Shown: positions 35,147-47,974 of the stretch, one piece after another | Position numbering within the stretch: position 1 is the stretch's first letter | How the letters are laid out: every line of letters starts with the position of its first letter | Source of the DNA: Verrucosispora sp. WMMD573 | GTDB lineage: Bacteria; Actinomycetota; Actinomycetes; Mycobacteriales; Micromonosporaceae | Assembly: GCF_027497175.1 (NCBI RefSeq) | Contig: NZ_CP114901.1 | Location: forward strand, 4,154,001-4,218,000 | Length of the DNA: 64,000 nt | Reading direction: 5' to 3' | Made by a program: the position numbers and the translations under genes | The notes under the pieces: model-generated | Told to the model about the DNA's origin: nothing | Database searches by the model: none | The model's input: the letters and a program-made list of their open reading frames with translations, nothing else

Positions 35147-35160
35147 ATAGCAGGTGTTCG

Positions 35161-37505
<2,345 letters not shown>

Positions 37506-37511
37506 GACACA

Positions 37512-37551
37512 CCCGTGGGGGCCTGGGCAGGTCGGTCCAGGCCCCCACGGG
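37512..37551. terminator. Bidirectional terminator after lon
   Basis: A perfect 15-bp stem (CCCGTGGGGGCCTGG and complement) with 10-nt loop between convergent lon and the dehydrogenase gene. Confidence 0.87.
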
Positions 37552-37574
37552 GATTGTGCGGCGGAGTACGGCGA

Positions 37575-38657
37575 TCAGTCCGGCAGATTCTTGATGATGG
37601 CCTCGGTGACGGCCTTGGTGCTGGCGTTGCCGCCAATATCCCGCGTCAGTAGACCCTGCGCGGTCGTTGCCTCGATGGCGGCGTTTATCTTCTTTGCCTC
37701 GTCGGGCAGGCCGAGATGGGTCAGCATCATGGCGGCGCTGCCGATGGCGCCGATGGGGTTGCAGATTCCCATTCCAGCGATGTCGGGTGCGGACCCGTGC
37801 ACCGGCTCGAACATGCTCGGATACCGACGTTCGGGATTGAGGTTGGCGCTCGGGGCGAGGCCGAGGCTGCCCGCCAAGGCGCTGCCGAGATCAGAGAGGA
37901 TATCCGCATTCAGGTTGGATGCGACGACCACCGAGAGGTCCTCGGGGTGCAGGACGAACTTTGCCGCCATAGCATCCACCAGAACACTCTCGGTCTCGAC
38001 GTCCGGATAATCGGCGGCAACCCTCCGGAATGTGTCGTCCCAGAGGACCATGCCGTACTGCTGTGCGTTGCTCTTGGTGACGCTGGCCACTTTCTTGCGG
38101 GTCCTGGTCCGGGCAAGATCGAACGCGAACCGCATGATCCGTTCGCACCCGACCTCCGTGAACAGGGCAGACTGGACGGCAACCTCTCCGCCCGCACCGC
38201 GGGCGGAGAGGTTGCGTCCGCCAAGGCCGGCGTATTCGCCCTCGGTGTTCTCGCGTACGACGACCCAATCGAGTTCGACGGTGTCGGCCTTGCGCAGCGG
38301 GCTGGTGATGCCCGGCAGAAAGTTCACCGGCCGCACATTCGCCCAATGATCGAAGCCTTGGCAGATGCGCAGGCGGAGACCCCACAGGCTGATGTGGTCA
38401 GCCACGGTGGGCCACCCTACGGCGCCGAAATAGATGGCGTCGAAGTTGCGCAACTTTTCCAGACCGTCATCGGGCATCATGACTCCATGCTCGGCATAGT
38501 AGTCCGAGCCCCACGGGAACTCCTCCCAGTGGAATCCGAAACGGCCACCGGAGCGCGCTTCCAGCGCGTCGAGGACGTCCCGTCCAGCGGCGACTACCTC
38601 GCGACCGACACCGTCGGCGGGAATGGCGGCGATACGGAAACGGTGCTGATTGCTCAT
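37575..38657 (-). CDS. Tartrate/D-malate dehydrogenase (isocitrate/isopropylmalate dehydrogenase family)
   Basis: A 360-residue NAD-dependent beta-decarboxylating dehydrogenase. ATG 38657 (MSNQHRFRIAAIPADGVG) is chosen, with GGAG upstream; an in-frame start at 38690 lies closer to the mapped promoter. The blocks EEFPWGSDYYAEHGVMMPDDGLEKLRNFDAIYFGAVGWP, DWVVVRENTEGEYAG, the catalytic Lys in SVTKSNAQQYGM and the metal-binding Asp in NLNADILSDL match the tartrate dehydrogenase (TtuC)/DmlA subgroup. Known TtuC oxidises (+)-tartrate and D-malate and converts meso-tartrate to D-glycerate. It has its own LysR-type promoter (38696-38763) and lies near a glycerate kinase gene, supporting a glycerate-forming role. 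Confidence 0.88.
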   Translation of the reverse strand: MSNQHRFRIAAIPADGVGREVVAAGRDVLDALEARSGGRFGFHWEEFPWGSDYYAEHGVMMPDDGLEKLRNFDAIYFGAVGWPTVADHISLWGLRLRICQGFDHWANVRPVNFLPGITSPLRKADTVELDWVVVRENTEGEYAGLGGRNLSARGAGGEVAVQSALFTEVGCERIMRFAFDLARTRTRKKVASVTKSNAQQYGMVLWDDTFRRVAADYPDVETESVLVDAMAAKFVLHPEDLSVVVASNLNADILSDLGSALAGSLGLAPSANLNPERRYPSMFEPVHGSAPDIAGMGICNPIGAIGSAAMMLTHLGLPDEAKKINAAIEATTAQGLLTRDIGGNASTKAVTEAIIKNLPD

Positions 38658-38695
38658 GGCAACTCCGGCCTCGTGGCAGTTGGTAGGCACAAATC

Positions 38696-38763
38696 AGTGA
38701 ACCCGGATGTTCCATAGGCGTCCAACACCGCTATCCGATCGGTTGCATTGGCGCAGCCTATGA
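38696..38763 (-). promoter_or_regulatory. LysR-regulon promoter of the dehydrogenase gene
   Basis: On the minus strand TCATAGG-N5-CCAATGC (38763-38745), TTGGAC starting exactly 38 nt from the first base (38725-38720), then an 18-nt spacer and TTCACT (38701-38696). The second half-site has one mismatch to CCTAT. The expected transcript leaves a short leader of about 30 nt. Confidence 0.75.
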
Positions 38764-38774
38764 ATCCCGCCGCA

Positions 38775-40175
38775 CTACACCTCGCAGCTGTGGGTGTGCT
38801 CGCCGGCCGTCATGCGCTGCGTACCCACGAACGCCTTGACCGCGCGGGGCCGGCCCAGCTTGATCCGGTCCAGGGCCTTGATCCTGTCCTTTTTGCTCTT
38901 ATCGCGCCACGTGTCGTCGTCGGTGTCGAAGGCGAGCGGCTGCAGATAGTCGACCGGGTCGATGACCCACCGCACGTGCGGCCGGTCGGCGTCCGGCACC
39001 TCCATGAGGTCCATCTGTTCCAGGTAGCCGGCGTACACGGCCAGGGAGCAGCCTTCCCGCGTCCGGGTGCCCGAGGTCAGATGGTTCGGCACGAAGATGC
39101 GTGGGTGAAGGACCGACTGGTAGTGGATGAGGTCGCGCAGGCCGTTGTTGGTGTAGTTCGCCGTCGACGCGGTCGCCAGGTGCAGGTCGGTCTGGGGAAG
39201 CGACGCGAGGCGGCCACGGATGCGCTCGCCGTCCTCGGGAGTGCCGGACCAGCCGTTGCCGATGCCCTCCTTCAGGGCACCCGCGGTGTTCTGCCACCCG
39301 AAGCTGAAGTTGCTGCCGTGCCGCAGGGTGATGTGGAAGTAGATGCTCACGGTGCCGCCGGAGCCTCCGCCGGTACGCAGGTTCATCTGCCCGGGCTGCG
39401 GGCTGGAACCCGGAGTGAGGGATGTGCCGGACGGGAAGAGCGCCGCGTCGCGCGGGTCGACGAGGATCTCGGTACGCGGTGGCGGGTACTGCGGGTCCTG
39501 CGGCACCGCGACCGAGTGCAGGTGCCGGAAGGCCACCACCTGGGCGTAGGGTTCGAGCACGTCGAGCCGGATCATCTCGGTGCCGGGAACGGAGTCGGCG
39601 CTGGTGACCGGCACGGTCCGGAGGACGGCGTCGGCGGGGATCCGGGTCTTCTGATCAGCGTTGACCAGCGGGTCAGCCTTCAGCCGGGCGAAGTCGGCGG
39701 CCAGCACGGCACAGGTCTCCTCCGAGGCGTAGATCGTCGCCCCGGTCATCGCCGCGATGTACGCCGCGTTGTCGGCGTGGTCGCCATGCCCATGACCGAG
39801 CAGGATGGCGTCCGGGCGGGCATCGATGAGGTCGGCGATCACCAGCGGCGTCCGGCCCCGTTCCACCTCCAGCCGGCTGATGAACGTGTCGAGGTAGACG
39901 AGCCGTCCGCCGACCGCCACGGCGAACGACGAGTTGGACAGCCAGGATGTGATGACGCGTTCCTGGGGAAAGGCGCCGGTCCGAGGATCGACGTTCTCCG
40001 GGCCGAACAGCCGCAACCGGGCGGCGATGCCGGCATCCGAGAGGCGTCTGCCGCCCTTCAGCGGTGCCCAACTGGTACCGAGGTGGGAGGCGAAACCCGG
40101 GGCGGCGGCGACTGTCGAACCGATGGCGACGCCGGACACCGCGGTGGCCGAGGCGAGGAACAACCTTCGTTTCAT
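38775..40175 (-). CDS. Tat-exported metallo-beta-lactamase-fold hydrolase
   Basis: A 466-residue protein. The ATG follows GAGGAGAAG. The N-terminus MKRRLFLASATAVSG...VAAAPGFA has a twin basic pair and a hydrophobic core like a Tat (or Sec) signal; KRR lacks the full S/T-RR-x-F-L-K consensus. The MBL signature LLGHGHGDHADN (HxHxDH) is at about residues 125-136, and further metal-ligand histidines are in AFRHLHS and VPNHLTSG. Compared with small lactonases it is long, with an extra C-terminal region of about 150 residues. The substrate is unknown. Its LysR-type promoter links it to the dehydrogenase, glycerate kinase and importer, so it may release an organic acid outside the cell. Confidence 0.78.
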   Translation of the reverse strand: MKRRLFLASATAVSGVAIGSTVAAAPGFASHLGTSWAPLKGGRRLSDAGIAARLRLFGPENVDPRTGAFPQERVITSWLSNSSFAVAVGGRLVYLDTFISRLEVERGRTPLVIADLIDARPDAILLGHGHGDHADNAAYIAAMTGATIYASEETCAVLAADFARLKADPLVNADQKTRIPADAVLRTVPVTSADSVPGTEMIRLDVLEPYAQVVAFRHLHSVAVPQDPQYPPPRTEILVDPRDAALFPSGTSLTPGSSPQPGQMNLRTGGGSGGTVSIYFHITLRHGSNFSFGWQNTAGALKEGIGNGWSGTPEDGERIRGRLASLPQTDLHLATASTANYTNNGLRDLIHYQSVLHPRIFVPNHLTSGTRTREGCSLAVYAGYLEQMDLMEVPDADRPHVRWVIDPVDYLQPLAFDTDDDTWRDKSKKDRIKALDRIKLGRPRAVKAFVGTQRMTAGEHTHSCEV

Positions 40176-40258
40176 TGCTTCTCCTCATTGCCTGGTGCAG
40201 GCACGGAGTAGGGACGGGGAAGGTGAGGGTGCTCGCGGGTGGGGCTGAGATCGACTCA

Positions 40259-40326
40259 CTCAACCAATGTGATCGCCGCCACGTCCAAGACCGGTGTCCT
40301 CTGGACGCGATAGCGCGCTCCTATGA
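40259..40326 (-). promoter_or_regulatory. LysR-regulon promoter of the MBL-fold hydrolase gene
   Basis: TCATAGG-N5-GCTATCG (40326-40308), TTGGAC starting 38 nt along (40288-40283), then 18 nt to GTTGAG (40264-40259). One half-site base departs from ATAGG-N5-CCTAT. The -10 is weak, as in activator-dependent promoters. Confidence 0.75.
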
Positions 40327-40385
40327 GTCGTCGCGTCGCGCCTGATCAGCCGCGACGCTCGCAGCTACAGCACCGCCCGCCGACG

Positions 40386-41519
40386 TCACCCGGTGAGATG
40401 GTCCCGAGCGATCCGTCGTCCGATCTCGGTGAGCAGCTCGGCGGCGTTCGACTGGCATCGGTGGACGTCCGGTTCGACGCTGGTGAGCAGGTAGACACCG
40501 GCGAAGCCGGCGGCGGCGAGTTCGGCGGCGTCGAGCGTCGACTGACCGGCCACCGCGACGACCGGCACACCCGCGGAGCGTGCCGCGGCGGCCACCCCGA
40601 CGGGAGCCTTGCCGGCGAGGCTCTGCCGGTCGAGCTGACCCTCGCCGGTGATCACGAGCCGTGCGGTGGCCAGGGCCGGGGTGAAGTCGGTCAACTCCAG
40701 GAGAAGTTCGATACCCGAGCGGACGCTCGCGCCGAGGGCCAGGGCGGCGAATCCGACCCCACCGGCGGCGCCGGCCGAGGGCGACGAGGCCAGTCGCGTA
40801 CCGGTGCTCTGCTCCACCACGGTCGCCCACCGGGTCAGGGCGTGTTCGAGGTGGTGGACCTGCGCGGGGTCGGCACCCTTCTGCGGACCGTACGTCGCGG
40901 CTGCGCCCCGGGCACCGAGCAACGGGTTGTCCACGTCGGCGGCCACCGTCACGGAGACGCCCTGGAGCAGTTCGCGGGCCGGGTCCAGGTCGACGGAGGA
41001 GACGTCGGCGAGCCAGCGACCACCGCGCCGGACCTCCCGCTGATCGCCGTCGAGCAGCCGGGCGCCCAGTGCCTGGAGCAGGCCGGCGCCGCCGTCGGTG
41101 CTGGCGCTGCCCCCCAGACCGATGACGAGATCCCGGCAGCCGTTGCGCACCGCTGCGGCGACGACCTGCCCGAGCCCGTACGACGAGGCGTCCAACGGCG
41201 CGGGAACGTTGTCGGGTAGCCGGCTGAGCCCGCATGTGTTGGCGAGTTCGACCACCGCGGTCGTGTCACGGGCCGCGTAGCTTGTCTGCACGGTGCAGCC
41301 GGTTGGCCCGTCGACCGTGACCGGGATCCGCTCGAAGCCGGCGGCAGTCAGGACCGCGAGTGTGCCATCCCCACCGTCGGCCATCGGCCGGCATCCGACG
41401 TCGAGTTCCGGACGTACGTCCTGCAGCCCGGCTCGTAGAGCCTGCGCGACCCCTGTCGCGTCCAGGGAGCCCTTGAACTTGTCCGGTGCCACAAGACATG
41501 TTGTCCTGCTGGTGGGCAC
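40386..41519 (-). CDS. Glycerate kinase
   Basis: A 377-residue type I glycerate kinase (GlxK/GarK family). GTG 41519 is chosen because GGGAGG lies 5 nt upstream. Family blocks in order: LVAPDKFKGSLDATGVAQALRAGL, CRPMADGGDGTLAVL, VIGLGGSASTDGGAGLLQALGARLLD, DVDNPLLGARGAAATYGPQKGA and VITGEGQLDRQSLAGKAPVGVA. It phosphorylates D-glycerate to 2-phosphoglycerate, the entry to lower glycolysis. It is the natural acceptor for glycerate formed by the tartrate dehydrogenase-like enzyme. Confidence 0.94.
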   Translation of the reverse strand: MPTSRTTCLVAPDKFKGSLDATGVAQALRAGLQDVRPELDVGCRPMADGGDGTLAVLTAAGFERIPVTVDGPTGCTVQTSYAARDTTAVVELANTCGLSRLPDNVPAPLDASSYGLGQVVAAAVRNGCRDLVIGLGGSASTDGGAGLLQALGARLLDGDQREVRRGGRWLADVSSVDLDPARELLQGVSVTVAADVDNPLLGARGAAATYGPQKGADPAQVHHLEHALTRWATVVEQSTGTRLASSPSAGAAGGVGFAALALGASVRSGIELLLELTDFTPALATARLVITGEGQLDRQSLAGKAPVGVAAAARSAGVPVVAVAGQSTLDAAELAAAGFAGVYLLTSVEPDVHRCQSNAAELLTEIGRRIARDHLTG

Positions 41520-41574
41520 GGTGCCTCCCGGGGTTGCTGCTGCACGATGGGCTGCCGGATCGGTAGCCCCATCA

Positions 41575-41642
41575 ACCTTGGGTTGGCCCCGGTACGGCGT
41601 CCAACACGCTGGGTCTACCACTCCCATAGGTGGGGCCTATCG
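41575..41642 (-). promoter_or_regulatory. LysR-regulon promoter of the glycerate kinase gene
   Basis: CGATAGG-N5-CCTATGG (41642-41624), TTGGAC 38 nt along (41604-41599), 18 nt, CAAGGT (41580-41575). The core ATAGG-N5-CCTAT is perfect. Confidence 0.8.
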
Positions 41643-41725
41643 GACTGGCTCCGGCGAGATGGACCGGAGTCGGGTCGATTTGGTACGCGACCGACGAGGC
41701 CCGGCCCGGGTGCCGATCCGGTCTG

Positions 41726-42631
41726 TCAGGCGACCGGCCGATCACGTCTCTCGGCGCGGTACGCCTGGGCGACGTCGATGAACGCTCGGGCGGCGGGCGT
41801 CAGCTGGGTGCGGCGACTGACCATGACGACCCGGAGATGCGCCGTGGGGCGAATTGGCAGCACGTCAGCGCCAGCCCTGATGGCCAGATCTTTCCAGGCG
41901 GCGGGCAGGATCGCGTCGGCCACCCCGGCAAGGACGAGTGGCAGGATCGACGTACGGTGGGCGACCTCGGCGACCAGCCGGGCCTGGCTGCCCTGGGCCA
42001 GGATGTGATCGACGAGCTGCCGCATGAGGGAACCGGGCTGCGAAGCGATGAGCCGGTGACCGTCGAGATCGTCGGCGGTGACATGGTCACGCCCGTGAAA
42101 GGGGCCACCGGGAGCGGTGAAGAGCATCAGCGGCTGGTCCTCCAGGGCCACGATGTCGAGCTCCGCGACCCGGACGAGGTCAGGCGCACCGAGCAGGCCG
42201 ATCTCGACGGCCCCGGTCCGCACGGCGTCGATGACCTCGTCGGGTACGAAGGCGGCGTTGACACTGACGGTGACGTCTGGATGGGCGGCGGCGAATCGTT
42301 GCATGATCGGTGCCAGCGGCTGGATGCCTGCGGAGGGCATCGAGGTGATCTCGACCCGGCCTCGGGCGACTCCCTTGATGGCGTCGATGGTCGCCTGGGC
42401 CGTGGCCAGGTCCCGGATGACCTGTCGGGCCGGGCCGATCAGTTGCTTGCCGGCGTCGCTGAGTACCACGCCGCGGCCGACCCGGTGGAACAGGGCAACG
42501 CCCAGCTCGCGTTCGAGGCCGGCGATGGCCTGCGACAGTGACGGTTGCGCGATGTAGAGCCGTTCGGCGGCCTTGCCGAAGCCCTCGGCATCGACGACGG
42601 CGAGAAAGTAGCGCAGCTGGCGGGCGTCCAT
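41726..42631 (-). CDS. LysR-family transcriptional regulator
   Basis: A 301-residue LTTR. The N-terminal winged HTH (residues 1-60) reads MDARQLRYFLAVVDAEGFGKAAERLYIAQPSLSQAIAGLERELG, and the effector-binding domain runs from about residue 90. It lies between the glycerate kinase gene and the ABC importer operon. It has its own copy of the operator/promoter architecture, so it is the obvious regulator of the five similar promoters and probably controls itself. The inducer is likely a tartrate-like or hydroxy-acid molecule (inference). Confidence 0.93.
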   Translation of the reverse strand: MDARQLRYFLAVVDAEGFGKAAERLYIAQPSLSQAIAGLERELGVALFHRVGRGVVLSDAGKQLIGPARQVIRDLATAQATIDAIKGVARGRVEITSMPSAGIQPLAPIMQRFAAAHPDVTVSVNAAFVPDEVIDAVRTGAVEIGLLGAPDLVRVAELDIVALEDQPLMLFTAPGGPFHGRDHVTADDLDGHRLIASQPGSLMRQLVDHILAQGSQARLVAEVAHRTSILPLVLAGVADAILPAAWKDLAIRAGADVLPIRPTAHLRVVMVSRRTQLTPAARAFIDVAQAYRAERRDRPVA

Positions 42632-42773
42632 CGCCGGTCAGTGCCGGGCACCGCTACGACGCCGCAGTGGTCGGTGGCGGCCGTCGTCGGATACAGCCAT
42701 GGTGAACCTGCGGTGTGTCATGCGCGCACACCTTTCGCCGAAGTTCATGATCAGATCTTCCTGACCTGCCGAC

Positions 42774-42841
42774 ATGCAACCAGGCTGACGCCGATAGGTC
42801 CAGTGCCGGTTCGCGAGGGATCACATAGGTGACGCCTACTG
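42774..42841 (-). promoter_or_regulatory. LysR-regulon promoter of the lysR gene
   Basis: CAGTAGG-N5-CCTATGT (42841-42823), CTGGAC starting 38 nt along (42803-42798), 18 nt, TTGCAT (42779-42774). One half-site base and one -35 base differ from the others, consistent with weaker autoregulated expression. Confidence 0.7.
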
Positions 42842-42922
42842 GCGAGGATTCCTCGGCCGGACGGCTCTGCATCGCCGACGTACGGACGAGTGAGCGCCCT
42901 CGGGTGGGCGTCAGCCCCGCAA

Positions 42923-42990
42923 CGATAGGCACGACCTATCGGTTGGATCGATGCAGCGTCTTGGACGTCACTATGACCGCCGAGTTAACT
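42923..42990 (+). promoter_or_regulatory. LysR-regulon promoter of the ABC importer operon
   Basis: A perfect CGATAGG-N5-CCTATCG (42923-42941), TTGGAC starting 38 nt along (42961-42966), 18 nt, TTAACT (42985-42990). The inverted repeat centre is about 65 nt before the expected start point, the classic LTTR recognition-site position. Confidence 0.82.
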
Positions 42991-43027
42991 GTTGTGCTGC
43001 AGGACACAGTCAGCTTGGAGACAGCAG

Positions 43028-43099
43028 ATGCCGCGATCCCCGCCACCCCCACTGGACCTGTCGAAATGCAGGGCGACGTGCGAGCGTCAGGTGCCCTGA
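43028..43099 (+). CDS. Possible 23-residue leader peptide
   Basis: ATG 43028 sits 8 nt after GGAG and opens a 23-codon frame (starts MPRSPPPPLDL, contains two Cys and ends ERQVP). It lies inside the long leader of the importer operon. A Pro-rich run of four PPPP codons could stall ribosomes and act in attenuation. Position and ribosome site are the only evidence. Confidence 0.25.
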   Translation: MPRSPPPPLDLSKCRATCERQVP

Positions 43100-43327
43100 A
43101 GGTTGGATCGCCATGACCGGCTCGCTCCCGTGCCCGTCCGGTCGGTGACTCCGACGCAGCACGGCGTCGTCCGCGGAACCTGCGGCTAGGACGCAAGCGG
43201 CGCGAGACCTGTCCAGGTCGGCCCCGACTGGCGTGTCAGCGCGCCGACGAACGGACCCGACCGTTCCAACACCACGGCCACCAACCGGAGCCAGTCGCCT
43301 AGCCGACGAGTCCAAGGGAGTCCCTGC

Positions 43328-44179
43328 ATGGTTCAACCGTCCCCGCCGCGTACCGAGCCGGAACGGAGCGTGCCGCACCCCGGCGAGCGACCGGACACGC
43401 TGCTCCGCGTGTCTCACGCGTCGATCGGCTATCGGGTCAACGGCGCCTTCACCCGAGCCGTGGCAGACGTGAGTTTCGACGTCGCCGCCGGCGAAACGAT
43501 CATGTTGATCGGCCCGTCCGGATGCGGAAAGTCGACCCTTCTCAAGACCATCGCGGGATTCCTGGACCTCGCCGACGGCACGATCACCGTCGCCGGGCGA
43601 CGCACACTCGCTCCCGGGCCGGACCGCGCGGTCGTGTTTCAGGAGTTCGACCAGCTGTTTCCCTGGCGTGACGTACTGGACAACGTGGCGTACCCGTTGC
43701 GCCGCAACGGCCGCACAAAGGCCGAAGCGGAGCAACAGGCTCGTCGCTATCTGGAGATGATGGGGCTGAGCCGTGCTCTCGACCGCCACCCGCACCAGCT
43801 CTCGGGTGGCATGAAGCAGCGGGTGGCGATCGCGCGTGCGTTCGCGCTGGAGCCCGTCATGCTGCTGATGGACGAGCCGTTCGGCGCCCTGGACGCCCTC
43901 ACCCGCGCCCGCCTCCAGGCCGAACTCAACGCCATCGCGAAGCGTACCGGGGTGACCATCCTGTTCGTCACCCACAGTATCGAAGAGGCCATCGTCCTCG
44001 GCGATCGCGTCGTCGTGCTGACCGACCCGCCCTCGGTCGTCCGCGAGGTTGTGACGATCACCGAGGAGGCGAAGGTGGTCGGTTCAGAGCAGTACCGAAG
44101 CGTGCGGACACACTTGGGCAGCCTGCTGCACCGGGATGGTAAGGAGGCAGACGAGGATGTCGCTGAGTTCACCGACTGA
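43328..44179 (+). CDS. NitT/TauT-family ABC transporter ATP-binding protein
   Basis: A 283-residue ATPase. ATG 43328 follows GGGAG. Walker A GPSGCGKST (residues 62-70), Q-loop VFQEFDQLFPW (Gln105), signature LSGGMKQR (158-165), Walker B VMLLMDEP (177-184) and the switch histidine in VTHSIEE (His216) are all present. The FDQLFPWRDV wording is typical of nitrate/sulfonate/taurine-type importers. It overlaps the permease gene by 23 nt. Confidence 0.94.
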   Translation: MVQPSPPRTEPERSVPHPGERPDTLLRVSHASIGYRVNGAFTRAVADVSFDVAAGETIMLIGPSGCGKSTLLKTIAGFLDLADGTITVAGRRTLAPGPDRAVVFQEFDQLFPWRDVLDNVAYPLRRNGRTKAEAEQQARRYLEMMGLSRALDRHPHQLSGGMKQRVAIARAFALEPVMLLMDEPFGALDALTRARLQAELNAIAKRTGVTILFVTHSIEEAIVLGDRVVVLTDPPSVVREVVTITEEAKVVGSEQYRSVRTHLGSLLHRDGKEADEDVAEFTD

Positions 44180-45041
44180 ACAACAGACGATCACGCCGGC
44201 CGGGGGGACTCCGGTGCCGCCGACGACCACCACCGACGCCGCGCCGCGGCGGGTGCGGGACTGGCGGTGGGGATCGATGCCGGTATGGCTGCGACGGGTG
44301 CTCGTTGTCGTCCTGCTGCTGACCGGTTGGCAGCTCTACGTCACGGTGTCGGGCGTCAACCCCCTGCTGTTCTCCTCGCCCGCGGACGTGGGCAAGGCCC
44401 TGGTCGCCGGATTCCAGAACGGCGAGCTGCTCCGATCGACCGGCACCACGATGCGGGTCCTGCTGCTCGGCATGCTCTTCGGCAGTCTGATCGCGGTCGT
44501 GCTGACCACTCTCGCAGTGTGGACGCGTTTCGGGGAGGACGTGCTCGTCGTCTTCTCCTCGATGCTGAATCCATTGCCATCGATCGCTGTGCTGCCGCTG
44601 GCTATCCTGTGGTTCGGGCTGAGTGAAACGGCGCTGGTCTTCGTGGTCGCCAACGCGGTCATCTGGCCGATTGCCATCAATGTCAATACCGGTTTTCGGA
44701 CGGCGAACCGCACGATTCTGGCGGTGGGGCGCAACATCGGCCTCAAGCGCTGGCGCATGATTTCCGAGGTGCTCTTTCCCGCCGCTCTCCCGCACACCAT
44801 CTCGGGGGTGAAGACCGCCTGGGCGTTCGGCTGGCGCACCATCGTCGCCTCCGAACTCGTGTTCGGCGTTGCTGGCGGTGGGGGCGGCCTCGGCTACTTC
44901 ATCAACAACAGCCGTTACTACCTCGACATCCCCGACGTTTTCGCCGGCCTGGTGACGATCGCTGTCATCGGTCTCCTGATTGACATGGTGTTCATTCTCA
45001 TCGAGCGGCGTACCGTCGTGCGATGGGGCATGAAGACGTAG
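44157..45041 (+). CDS. NitT/TauT-family ABC transporter permease
   Basis: A 294-residue inner-membrane protein with about six helices. ATG 44157 is chosen, behind GGAGG, overlapping the ATPase gene. A 45-residue polar N-terminal tail precedes the first helix (VLVVVLLLTGWQLYV). The EAA coupling loop reads GRNIGLKRWRMISEVLFPAALPHTISGVKTAWAFGW. It partners the ATPase before and the binding protein after. Confidence 0.93.
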   Translation: MSLSSPTEQQTITPAGGTPVPPTTTTDAAPRRVRDWRWGSMPVWLRRVLVVVLLLTGWQLYVTVSGVNPLLFSSPADVGKALVAGFQNGELLRSTGTTMRVLLLGMLFGSLIAVVLTTLAVWTRFGEDVLVVFSSMLNPLPSIAVLPLAILWFGLSETALVFVVANAVIWPIAINVNTGFRTANRTILAVGRNIGLKRWRMISEVLFPAALPHTISGVKTAWAFGWRTIVASELVFGVAGGGGGLGYFINNSRYYLDIPDVFAGLVTIAVIGLLIDMVFILIERRTVVRWGMKT

Positions 45042-45149
45042 CCGGCTCGCCGACCCGTCGGCCTTCCGGTGACCACCACCGCAGGTGGAACGCAACTGTC
45101 CACCGCACACCCCCGTCCACTACCAGCAAGACAAGGTGGGGTTCACTTC

Positions 45150-46166
45150 ATGACTTCAACCAAGCCTCGAACCGCTCGGCGATCCCGTTTCACCGCCGTC
45201 GCCGCACTTGCCGCGCTCCTGCTGACCTCGACCGCGTGCGGTTCCGACGAAGCCACCGAGCAGGCCAGTGACGGTATGCCGGCCAAGGTCACCATCGCGT
45301 ACCAGCCGGGCCTGTCATACGCTCCGCTCATCCTGCTCAAGCAGAGCGGCACCCTGGAGAAGGAATTCCCCAACACAACGTTCGAGTGGACGGAGTTGTC
45401 GTCCAGCGCCGCAGTGCAGGACGGCATGATCTCCGGCGACATCCAGGTCGGCGCGGGTAGCGCGGCGCAGATGATTCTGGCCTGGGACAAGGGCGTCGAC
45501 TGGCGGTACCTCGCCTCACTCAACGACGCGGAGCTGTGGCTGATGGCCAAGGACGAGCGTCTCAAGTCTCTCAGTGACTTCACCGGCTCCGACAAGATCG
45601 CAATGCCCTCGTTGACGTCTATCCAGGCGCTGGTCCTCCGCAAGGGAGCCCAGGCGCAGCTCGGTGACGCCAAGGCGCTCGACACCAACATCGTGCCGAT
45701 GTCTCACCCGGACGGCTTGCAGAATCTGGTCAGTGGCCAGATCGCCGGGCACCTGACCTCACCGCCGTTCCAGTTCGACGAGCAGGATCAGGGCATGCGC
45801 GTCGTCCTGAAGAGCAGTGACCTCTTCGGGCCGATCATGTTCAACGGCGTGTTCATGATGAACGAGTACTACGAGCAGAACACCGAGTTCTCGACGAAGT
45901 TCTATTCGATCCTGGAGAAGCAGATCGGCGCGCTCGCGGACAACCCGGCCGCGGCGGCGAACGACCTCTCGACGAACTCCGGCGGAAAGACCTCGCCGGA
46001 GAGCTTCGAGAAGTACCTCACCAACCCGGCGATCACCTACACGACCGAACCGCACGGTCTCCAGGACATCGCCGGTTTCATGAAGGAGATCGGAATGATC
46101 TCGAAGACCCCGGGCAGCTGGAAGGACCTCACCTTCCCCACCGTCCACGAGAGTGCTGGCAGCTGA
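45150..46166 (+). CDS. NMT1/SsuA-like ABC transporter substrate-binding lipoprotein
   Basis: A 338-residue protein. ATG 45150 lies behind AAGGTGGGG. The signal ends in a lipobox LLTSTAC (about residue 30). The mature part has the NMT1/TauA pattern: AYQPGLSYAPLILLKQSGTLEKEFPNTTFEWTELSSSAAVQDGMISGDIQVGAGSAAQ and SLTSIQALVLRKGAQAQLGD. Relatives bind nitrate, sulfonates, pyrimidine precursors or aromatic acids. Genetic context suggests a hydroxy-acid, but the sequence does not fix the ligand. Confidence 0.92.
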   Translation: MTSTKPRTARRSRFTAVAALAALLLTSTACGSDEATEQASDGMPAKVTIAYQPGLSYAPLILLKQSGTLEKEFPNTTFEWTELSSSAAVQDGMISGDIQVGAGSAAQMILAWDKGVDWRYLASLNDAELWLMAKDERLKSLSDFTGSDKIAMPSLTSIQALVLRKGAQAQLGDAKALDTNIVPMSHPDGLQNLVSGQIAGHLTSPPFQFDEQDQGMRVVLKSSDLFGPIMFNGVFMMNEYYEQNTEFSTKFYSILEKQIGALADNPAAAANDLSTNSGGKTSPESFEKYLTNPAITYTTEPHGLQDIAGFMKEIGMISKTPGSWKDLTFPTVHESAGS

Positions 46167-46199
46167 CAGCACGACCCGTATATCCCGCGCGGTGACCTC

Positions 46200-46234
46200 G
46201 CCGTCGGCGGTCGCTTCCGGCGACCGCCGACGGC
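46200..46234. terminator. Bidirectional terminator between the ABC operon and the helicase gene
   Basis: A perfect 15-bp stem (46200-46214 with 46220-46234) with a 5-nt loop lies between convergent genes. Confidence 0.87.
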
Positions 46235-46273
46235 TCGTCGTGCCCCAGTGACCGGCAACGGACGGCGCTGCGG

Positions 46274-47974
46274 TCAGCGGCGCTCGTCGCGGTCCCGGCG
46301 GACGGTGGCCTTGCGACCCTTGATGGTGCTTCCCCGCAGCCCGGCGATGACCTCGTCGGCGACAGTGACAGGCACCTCCACCAGGGAGAATCGATCGGCG
46401 ATCTCGATCGAGCCGATGTCCCGGCCCCGGACCCCGGTCTCCCCGGTGATCGCGCCCACCAGATCCTGCGGGCGCACCCCGGCCCGCCGGCCCACCCCGA
46501 TGAAGACCTGGGTGGTGCCGGCGGTGCGGGGCCGCGCCGGACGGCGCTCGCCCCGGCCCTCGTACCCCGCCGACCGTCCTTCCCGGGGCGGGCGGACCGC
46601 GACCTGAGGAATCTCCTCCTCGGCCTCGTCGGAACCGGGCAGCGTCGCCTCGTGGGCCAGCTTCACGGCGGCGAGCGCCACCTCCATCAGGTCGAACTCG
46701 TCGCTGAGCGTCTCGACGATCACCCGGAACGGGTCCAGGTCGTCCTCCAGCAGGCTTTCCCGCAGCGCGGCCTGGGTCAGCTCCAGCCGACGGGTCCGTA
46801 GGTCGGCGACCGTGGGAATCTTGTCGATCGTGATCCGCTGCCCGGTGACCCGTTCGATGGTCTTGAGCATCCGGTGTTCCCGGGGCTCGGCCAGAGTGAT
46901 CGCCACCCCCTCCCGGCCGGCTCGGCCCACCCGACCGATGCGGTGCACGTACGACTCGGGCGCCGACGGCACGTCGAAGTTGACCACGTGGCTGAGCTGT
47001 TCGACGTCGAGCCCACGGGCCGCCACGTCGGTGGCGACCAGTAGGTCGGCGGTGCCAGCGCGCAGCCGCCCCATCACCCGGTCCCGCTGCTCCTGGCTCA
47101 TGCCGCCGTGCAGCGCCTCCGCCCGGTAACCGCGACCGTTCATCGTCTCGGTGAGCCGGTCGACCTCCTCCCGGCTACGGCAGAACACGATCGCCGCGGT
47201 GGGCGACTCGACGTCCAGCACCCGCCCCAGCGCCGCTGGTTTGTGCGCCCGCGCCACCAGGTACGCGCTCTGCCGTACCCGGGGCGCCTCACCGGCCACC
47301 GGCTGCTCGCGGGCGATCAGGATGCGCACCGGATCGCTCAGGTGCGCTCGGGCCATCCCGTCGATACGCGCCGGCATGGTGGCCGAGAACAGCACCGTCT
47401 GCCGCTGCTCGGGGGTGTGTTCCAGGATCGCCTCGATGTCCTCGGCGAAGCCCATGTCGAGCATCTCGTCTGCCTCGTCCAGCACCACCGTGGCGAGGTT
47501 GCCCAACCGCAGCGTGCCGCGGGCGATGTGGTCCAGAGCGCGGCCGGGAGTGGCCACCACGACGTCGATGCCCGCGTCCAGCGCCCGCAACTGCCGACCG
47601 ATCGGCTGCCCACCGTAGATCGGCAACACCCGCGCACCGAGATCCTTGCCGTAGCGGTGGAACGCCTCGGAGACCTGCACCGCGAGTTCCCGGGTCGGCA
47701 CCAGCACCAGCGCGTGCGGGTCGTCGCCCGCCCGGTCGTCGGGCATCCGCTGCAACAGCGGCAGGGCGAACGCCGCCGTCTTGCCGGTGCCCGTCGCCGC
47801 CTGCCCGAGCAGATCCCGGCCGCCCAGCAGCGGCGGGATCGCCTCCCGCTGGATCGGCGTGGGCTCCTCGTACCCAAGCGCGGCGAGCGCGGCGAGCAGT
47901 TCGGGTCGTAGGCCGAGTTCCGTGAAGGCGGGCGGCTCGGCGGACGGGTCGGGCAGTACGGGCGTGGAACTCAT
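46274..47974 (-). CDS. DEAD-box RNA helicase (DeaD/CsdA-like)
   Basis: A 566-residue helicase. Q-motif GYEEPTPIQ, Walker A AATGTGKT (residues 60-67), DEAD (166-169, VVLDEADEMLDMGF), SAT and the C-terminal HRIGRVGRAGREG are intact. The C-terminal 75 residues (TTQVFIGVGRRAGVRPQDLVGAITGETGV...) form a DbpA-type RNA-binding domain. It probably helps ribosome assembly or cold adaptation by unwinding rRNA or mRNA structure. Confidence 0.94.
   Translation of the reverse strand: MSSTPVLPDPSAEPPAFTELGLRPELLAALAALGYEEPTPIQREAIPPLLGGRDLLGQAATGTGKTAAFALPLLQRMPDDRAGDDPHALVLVPTRELAVQVSEAFHRYGKDLGARVLPIYGGQPIGRQLRALDAGIDVVVATPGRALDHIARGTLRLGNLATVVLDEADEMLDMGFAEDIEAILEHTPEQRQTVLFSATMPARIDGMARAHLSDPVRILIAREQPVAGEAPRVRQSAYLVARAHKPAALGRVLDVESPTAAIVFCRSREEVDRLTETMNGRGYRAEALHGGMSQEQRDRVMGRLRAGTADLLVATDVAARGLDVEQLSHVVNFDVPSAPESYVHRIGRVGRAGREGVAITLAEPREHRMLKTIERVTGQRITIDKIPTVADLRTRRLELTQAALRESLLEDDLDPFRVIVETLSDEFDLMEVALAAVKLAHEATLPGSDEAEEEIPQVAVRPPREGRSAGYEGRGERRPARPRTAGTTQVFIGVGRRAGVRPQDLVGAITGETGVRGRDIGSIEIADRFSLVEVPVTVADEVIAGLRGSTIKGRKATVRRDRDERR

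Follow-up and report, generated by a model that had tools for sequence, protein, structure and literature searches.

Described tartrate systems and the Verrucosispora locus

The closest described counterparts of the locus analysed here, an 8.8-kb island of seven genes in Verrucosispora sp. WMMD573 whose five promoters share a composite control element, are the TAR (ttu) regions of Agrobacterium (Allorhizobium) vitis. As far as the excerpts of the published accounts go, these regions hold ttuC and mostly also ttuA, a LysR-like regulator (PMC9219206), and their glycerate kinase, TtuD, belongs to class II (MOFRL) (PMC2063504). In the same excerpts, TAR is an accessory trait (PMC9219206, PMC2063504), as the island appears to be, and a LysR-like regulator, a tartrate dehydrogenase and a glycerate kinase stand in one cluster, as they do in the window, that is, the whole stretch of 64,000 nucleotides under study (G000:C1:4154001-4218000 of a 6,495,827-base genome). 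The likeness between the window regulator and ttuA is at the family level. The sequence-only reading of this DNA, which knew of no described pathway with this set, was therefore too strong, given that the core resembles the ttu system as excerpted.

In contrast to the class II TtuD of those excerpts, the window kinase is of class I (PF02595), and the window goes beyond TAR in having an ATP-binding cassette (ABC) importer, an exported metallo-beta-lactamase (MBL)-fold hydrolase and five separate promoters. None of the seven island genes encodes a pyruvate kinase, which we take to be the product of ttuE in TAR systems. With neither a class II kinase nor a pyruvate kinase gene, the window is thus not counted as a TAR member. 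Another counterpart, compared by description only, is E. coli dmlR-dmlA, where a LysR regulator accompanies a dehydrogenase from the family of the window enzyme and D-malate is the substrate; in contrast to the window, it comes with no glycerate kinase and no exported hydrolase. Among the open-access papers listed, we found none joining tartrate dehydrogenase, LysR and glycerate kinase, and none joining tartrate dehydrogenase, LysR and regulon; tartrate dehydrogenase with metallo-beta-lactamase came up in one, on Entamoeba.

Judged from its genes and their relatives, the locus is probably a horizontally acquired, LysR-controlled catabolic island for a tartrate-type hydroxy-dicarboxylate. What is new relative to known systems is the NitT/TauT-type ABC importer together with the exported MBL-fold hydrolase, and the latter is the most interesting part of the cluster. 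The island and its genes are:

37506..46273: the island, which lon (35154-37505) and a DEAD-box helicase gene (46274-47974) border on either side
37575..38657, minus strand: tartrate dehydrogenase, TTC type (tartrate/D-malate dehydrogenase); TIGR02089; PDB 3flk/3fmx
38775..40175, minus strand: MBL-fold hydrolase of 466 aa with HxHxDH, exported (signal twin-arginine-like by eye); PF12706
40386..41519, minus strand: glycerate kinase, class I; PF02595, TIGR00045; likely start GTG 41519
41726..42631, minus strand: LysR-type regulator, 301 aa; PF00126, PF03466
43328..44179, plus strand: ABC importer ATPase, NitT/TauT type; PF00005
44136..45041, plus strand: ABC importer permease (longest open reading frame; start provisional); PF00528, 65.9 bits
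45150..46166, plus strand: substrate-binding protein, NMT1/SsuA-like, lipoprotein-like signal (by eye); PF13379

The control element and its regulator

The sequence-only reading had proposed one LysR regulon with five ATAGG-N5-CCTAT inverted repeats, each followed at a fixed distance by TTGGAC or CTGGAC, an 18-nt spacer and a -10 hexamer. All five repeats are present and the spacing is constant, 36 nt from the A of ATAGG (38 nt from the 7-mer arm) to TTGGAC at four sites and to CTGGAC at the lysR gene. The repeat itself is exact at 41626 and 42925, whereas the three other sites carry one mismatch each (CCAAT, GCTAT, GTAGG). Inspected by eye, the 18-nt spacer leads to a -10-like hexamer at three promoters (TTCACT, TTGCAT, TTAACT), but the MBL promoter fits better at 19 nt (TTGAGT) and that of the glycerate kinase shows no convincing hexamer at 18 nt (CAAGGT). 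Written as the composite pattern ATAGG-N5-CCTAT-N21-TTGGAC, the element lies at:

38720..38761, minus strand: dehydrogenase gene, ATAGG-N5-CCAAT with TTGGAC, 1 mismatch
40283..40324, minus strand: MBL gene, 1 mismatch; also before the MBL gene of genomes G060 and G093, 1 mismatch
41599..41640, minus strand: glycerate kinase gene, exact
42798..42839, minus strand: lysR gene, GTAGG with CTGGAC, 2 mismatches (the corresponding site of G060/G093 has 3)
42925..42966, plus strand: ABC importer operon, exact

Within the window, the repeat alone is barely above chance, with 8 occurrences at up to two mismatches against a shuffle mean of 3.4 (2 of 100 shuffles reach 8). The composite element is far above chance: genome-wide, there are four sites at up to one mismatch, all of them in the cluster, and seven at up to two mismatches, of which five are in the cluster; at up to three mismatches, the count is 9 against 8 for a reversed control.

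In a sample of 300 genomes of the family, own genome included, the element occurs at up to one mismatch in 32 and the reversed control in 6. Gene content was compared in 32 stretches around such hits. In 15, the element is accompanied both by a LysR orthologue, at 44-94% identity, and by a relative of the dehydrogenase, at 48-96%; another LysR-family gene (28-54% over the matched part) is nearby in 14, and no LysR match was found in the remaining three (L072, L092, L094). Since this set was chosen by the motif, protein-first searches were added. The dehydrogenase has relatives at 75-100% in 14 genomes, own included, and 13 of these have the element at up to two mismatches, its first base 74-123 nt ahead of the aligned reading frame; in the remaining genome, G146, element and LysR orthologue are both missing from the locus. 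Searching with LysR alone gave a match at E <= 1e-45 in 20 of the 300 genomes, own included, and at 19 of them the element (up to two mismatches) and a dehydrogenase gene are in the cluster (for L233-L235 and L247, whose short loci stop before the dehydrogenase, it was established from a separate locus comparison). In contrast, none of 20 dehydrogenase loci lacking a LysR orthologue has the element at up to three mismatches in 7.1-8.5 kb; these comprise G146, the window genome's own paralogue and 18 loci at 51-56% identity, hand-picked from the upper part of the list by skipping loci known to hold LysR. Therefore, the element tracks the regulator rather than the enzyme, and does so across genera. 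This co-occurrence backs a single LysR regulon with dehydrogenase, importer and glycerate kinase. The MBL and ABC genes were seen under the element in own, G060 and G093 alone among the genomes examined. For actinobacteria, this would be a tartrate-type LysR regulon with a precise, searchable control element; as that element goes with the lysR gene from genus to genus, LysR targets become predictable genome by genome.

For the shape of the element, we compiled 37 sites from the window and 15 relative stretches, 35 by the pattern at up to two mismatches; the other two, at three mismatches before lysR in L069 and L070, were added by hand. Conservation inside the pattern is thus partly selection: the T-N11-A claimed by the sequence-only reading is present at 37 of 37 sites, yet the pattern used to select them contains it. 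Outside the pattern, an ATCG about 22 nt from the first A is kept in 22 to 34 of 37 sites per base, the GT before TTGGAC in 32 and 33, and a weak T..A.T hexamer 18-19 nt past TTGGAC in 22 to 26. LysR regulators, in the excerpted account, often have a T-N11-A around -65 plus a site over -35 and -10 (PMC8407307). As sequence, the layout of T-N11-A, ATCG half-site and TTGGAC would fit this scheme, with -65 counted from predicted start points, and the regulator itself scores above cut-off for HTH_1 (PF00126) and LysR_substrate (PF03466).

Some further features adjoin these sites. Between the lysR element and lysR (42640-42760, minus strand), a leader open reading frame of about 27 codons ends just before lysR; G060/G093 have a diverged leader of like length there, and the DNA preceding it is well conserved (both by eye). 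The interval from the ABC element to the ATPase gene (42967-43327) exceeds its G060/G093 counterpart by about 110 nt, and both its ends look conserved. A leader peptide before the ABC operon was rejected, as the 23-aa reading frame of the window is without counterpart in L070. Elsewhere in the genome, a second dehydrogenase gene (L232, G000:C1:5146751-5147806; 51% identity) is without the element.

Dehydrogenase, glycerate kinase and substrate class

The window dehydrogenase scores 523.5 bits against the TIGR02089 cut-off of 470.4, which all eight relatives scanned also exceed, and its best PDB sequence match is the tartrate dehydrogenase/decarboxylase 3flk/3fmx. Such an enzyme makes D-glycerate and CO2 from meso-tartrate, or else oxidises tartrate, and the window enzyme presumably acts on a tartrate-type acid. 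In some relatives, the element also precedes the gene of a DASS carrier (TIGR00785 reached in 4 of 4 scanned), and in other relatives the element precedes DctA with a glycerate kinase behind it (G256, G258); NF002461 and TIGR00045 are reached at L077, and L076 has a DctA 83% alike and PF02595. A C4-dicarboxylate carrier under the element thus replaces the ABC importer, which backs the substrate class independently of the argument of the sequence-only reading. The glycerate kinase is clear by score (PF02595, 411 bits; TIGR00045, 373 against 168), whereas the proteobacterial clusters with the same dehydrogenase and MBL family have a MOFRL-class kinase in 5 of 5 scanned, so this step is filled by two families.

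On the preferred reading, the acid or its product would cause LysR, bound to ATAGG-N5-CCTAT near -65, to contact the ATCG half-site and the -35 (TTGGAC), and thereby switch on five promoters: its own and those of dehydrogenase, glycerate kinase, ABC importer and exported hydrolase. The importer would take up the acid, the dehydrogenase would turn meso-tartrate into D-glycerate and CO2 (or oxidise tartrate), and the kinase would pass phosphoglycerate to glycolysis. Outside the membrane, the exported hydrolase would probably release the acid from an ester, lactone or conjugate.

The exported hydrolase

The MBL-fold protein scores 28.7 bits for PF12706 (cut-off 27), and H128, H130, D132 and H133 of its HxHxDH motif are invariant in an alignment of 26. 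Its AlphaFold2 model (pLDDT 78.7) matches the MBL fold; the best Foldseek matches, at 10-19% identity, include 6hrg, 3x2z, 7e3w and 2wyl/3bv6, to which we presume the name UlaG applies. It shares fold and HxHxDH with these UPF0173/UlaG-like hydrolases but is about twice the length of 6hrg and 3x2z, has a signal peptide and misses the curated NF001911 (UPF0173) score (33.6 against 144). The solved structures gave no substrate, as the fold matches include RNase J and NAPE-PLD.

A full-length close homologue occurs in only three of 200 family genomes (own, G060, G093), with weak partial matches in 76 others, and in 2 of 397 genomes of the order sample (own, G060); an Amycolatopsis homologue (P0002) is 73% identical. 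More widely, 424 of 7,998 candidates scored belong to the family at E <= 0.001, and nine plasmid records carry it, of which three were examined for gene order. On an Agrobacterium plasmid, the MBL gene follows TctA in a cluster annotated with two tartrate dehydrogenases, glycerate kinase and pyruvate kinase; L102 has a like gene order, and in four proteobacterial loci (L101, L102, L105, L107) the MBL gene shares one same-strand run with dehydrogenase and TctBA.

The MBL neighbourhoods were surveyed at the best 79 of 172 genome candidates, with the own locus excluded from counts. A tartrate dehydrogenase lies within 10 kb at 11 of 19 loci with at least 50% MBL identity (neighbours counted when at least 68% identical to an Agrobacterium one), against 2 of 59 loci at 43% or less (neighbours at 48-50%; two more matches at 41-42% were not counted). 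The one-sided Fisher value is 6e-7, but the loci do not count as independent, since L113 with L114 and L115 with L116 form near-twin pairs. Importers at such loci are of TTT, TRAP and MFS types; since importer, regulator and kinase family vary, the MBL-dehydrogenase pairing is the constant part. An uncharacterised exported MBL-fold family is thus tied to tartrate dehydrogenase across phyla, and a 'hypothetical protein' gains a testable pathway.

Tartrate also occurs bound in plant polyphenol esters, for example as caffeoyl-tartrate. It is a long shot that the family supplies the missing first enzyme for ester-bound tartrate (plant polyphenol esters or a like conjugate), cleaving it outside the cell so that the LysR regulon can import and burn the tartrate. 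Fitting this idea, the flanks of the MBL gene at L106 encode a PF00775 dioxygenase-like protein (signal-like start) and an alpha/beta hydrolase, and a feruloyl-esterase-like protein (BD-FAE, signal-like start) adjoins it at L113/L114.

Close to the dehydrogenase and MBL genes of gammaproteobacterial loci, another MBL-fold family recurs, distinct from the first and likewise with signal-like starts:

L115:6038-7090: second MBL-fold family (family scanned)
L115:11224-12318: second MBL-fold family
L113:15335-16417: second MBL-fold family

Competing readings

Several observations weigh against a tartrate island and are set out here beside the readings they favour. The strongest rival, itself improbable, is a D-malate regulon in which the dehydrogenase would yield pyruvate, as in E. 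coli dmlRA, and the glycerate kinase would serve another purpose. The dehydrogenase family also takes D-malate, a LysR gene stands beside such a dehydrogenase and a C4-dicarboxylate carrier, and in most relatives no glycerate kinase is seen under the element. Against this, the kinase has an exact element of its own in the window, G060 and G093, and lies behind DctA under the element in G256 and G258; its presence favours tartrate over D-malate.

Somewhat less probable still is that the ABC importer and the MBL protein serve an unrelated use (sulfonate, lactone or signal degradation) and share only the promoter type. The binding protein (PF13379, 32.4 bits against 24.7; relatives of about 338 aa) is nearest to sulfonate, nitrate and taurine binders, it misses SsuA_fam TIGR01728 (74.7 against a cut-off of 163.5), and its homologues bear generic names only among the best 120 listed. 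The best NCBIfam models of the ATPase are ntrCD, SaoA and a taurine ATPase, all below cut-off. Among the 19 closest other MBL loci, 8 are without a dehydrogenase neighbour, some MBL loci ending at contig ends (L139 and L142 among these eight), and in Jiangella and Kribbella an AP_endonuc_2/HPPD-type protein adjoins the MBL gene, so the family is not limited to a tartrate pathway. On a Bradyrhizobium plasmid (L103:437-15153), type II secretion genes surround the MBL gene; a LysR gene is also present there, a dehydrogenase gene is not. The enrichment of dehydrogenase neighbours and the four same-strand proteobacterial runs argue against an unrelated use. The ABC ATPases near the MBL gene at L117-L119, considered as the same importer, were not counted because the one neighbouring permease that was scanned resembles MacB/FtsX and the remaining ones group with that permease.

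Two points concern the regulator. The LysR relative of G089 (38%) has neither element nor dehydrogenase, and the element is not the mark of one LysR alone, as had been supposed: other LysR genes with other neighbours use it, so the regulator cannot be read from a match alone. Most of their recognition helices have a QPSLS core (by eye), which may explain the shared site.

Finally, that the five sites reflect chance, or promoter duplication without LysR control, is very improbable: by itself the repeat is hardly commoner in the window than chance would give, and three sites are imperfect, but a chance repeat is rejected on the genome-wide counts, the closest dehydrogenase genes, the LysR-less loci and the LysR-first search.

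Island setting and other genes behind the element

The seven cluster proteins are matched at 99-100% on one Verrucosispora sioxanthis CWR15 contig. Of the 29 other genomes of the genus, 24 have the lon C-terminus within the 1.5-kb flank of the helicase gene; it was not seen there at the other five loci, one of them cut short. Neither lon nor the helicase gene was found in a 17-kb stretch around the G060/G093 cluster, and a protein near-identical to the G060/G093 one is annotated as unclassified Solwaraspora. This distribution suggests that the island was horizontally acquired. Base composition is weak evidence on origin, given the ranges of G+C per 1000 bases (island 0.64-0.71; helicase side 0.70-0.73; lon side 0.67-0.73).

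The likely gene starts, chosen by eye over the longest open reading frames, are ATG 38657 for the dehydrogenase and ATG 45150 for the binding protein; GTG 41519 of the glycerate kinase is preceded by GGGAGG, and its longest frame starts within the control repeat.

At five loci, the element precedes genes of the succinate dehydrogenase type that adjoin another LysR gene. This points to an sdh regulon of its own, controlled by a LysR protein through a similar site (subunits were identified by a family match at L086, with L083, L088, L096 and L097 grouped by blastp):

L083:6164-6205: sdh-linked element
L086:6705-6746: sdh-linked element
L088:6435-6476: sdh-linked element
L096:6140-6181: sdh-linked element
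L097:6715-6756: sdh-linked element

SnoaL/DUF4440-like proteins stand behind the element at L072, where no LysR gene was seen, and at L075, which with like loci (L071, L073, L074, L091) holds a third group of LysR genes.

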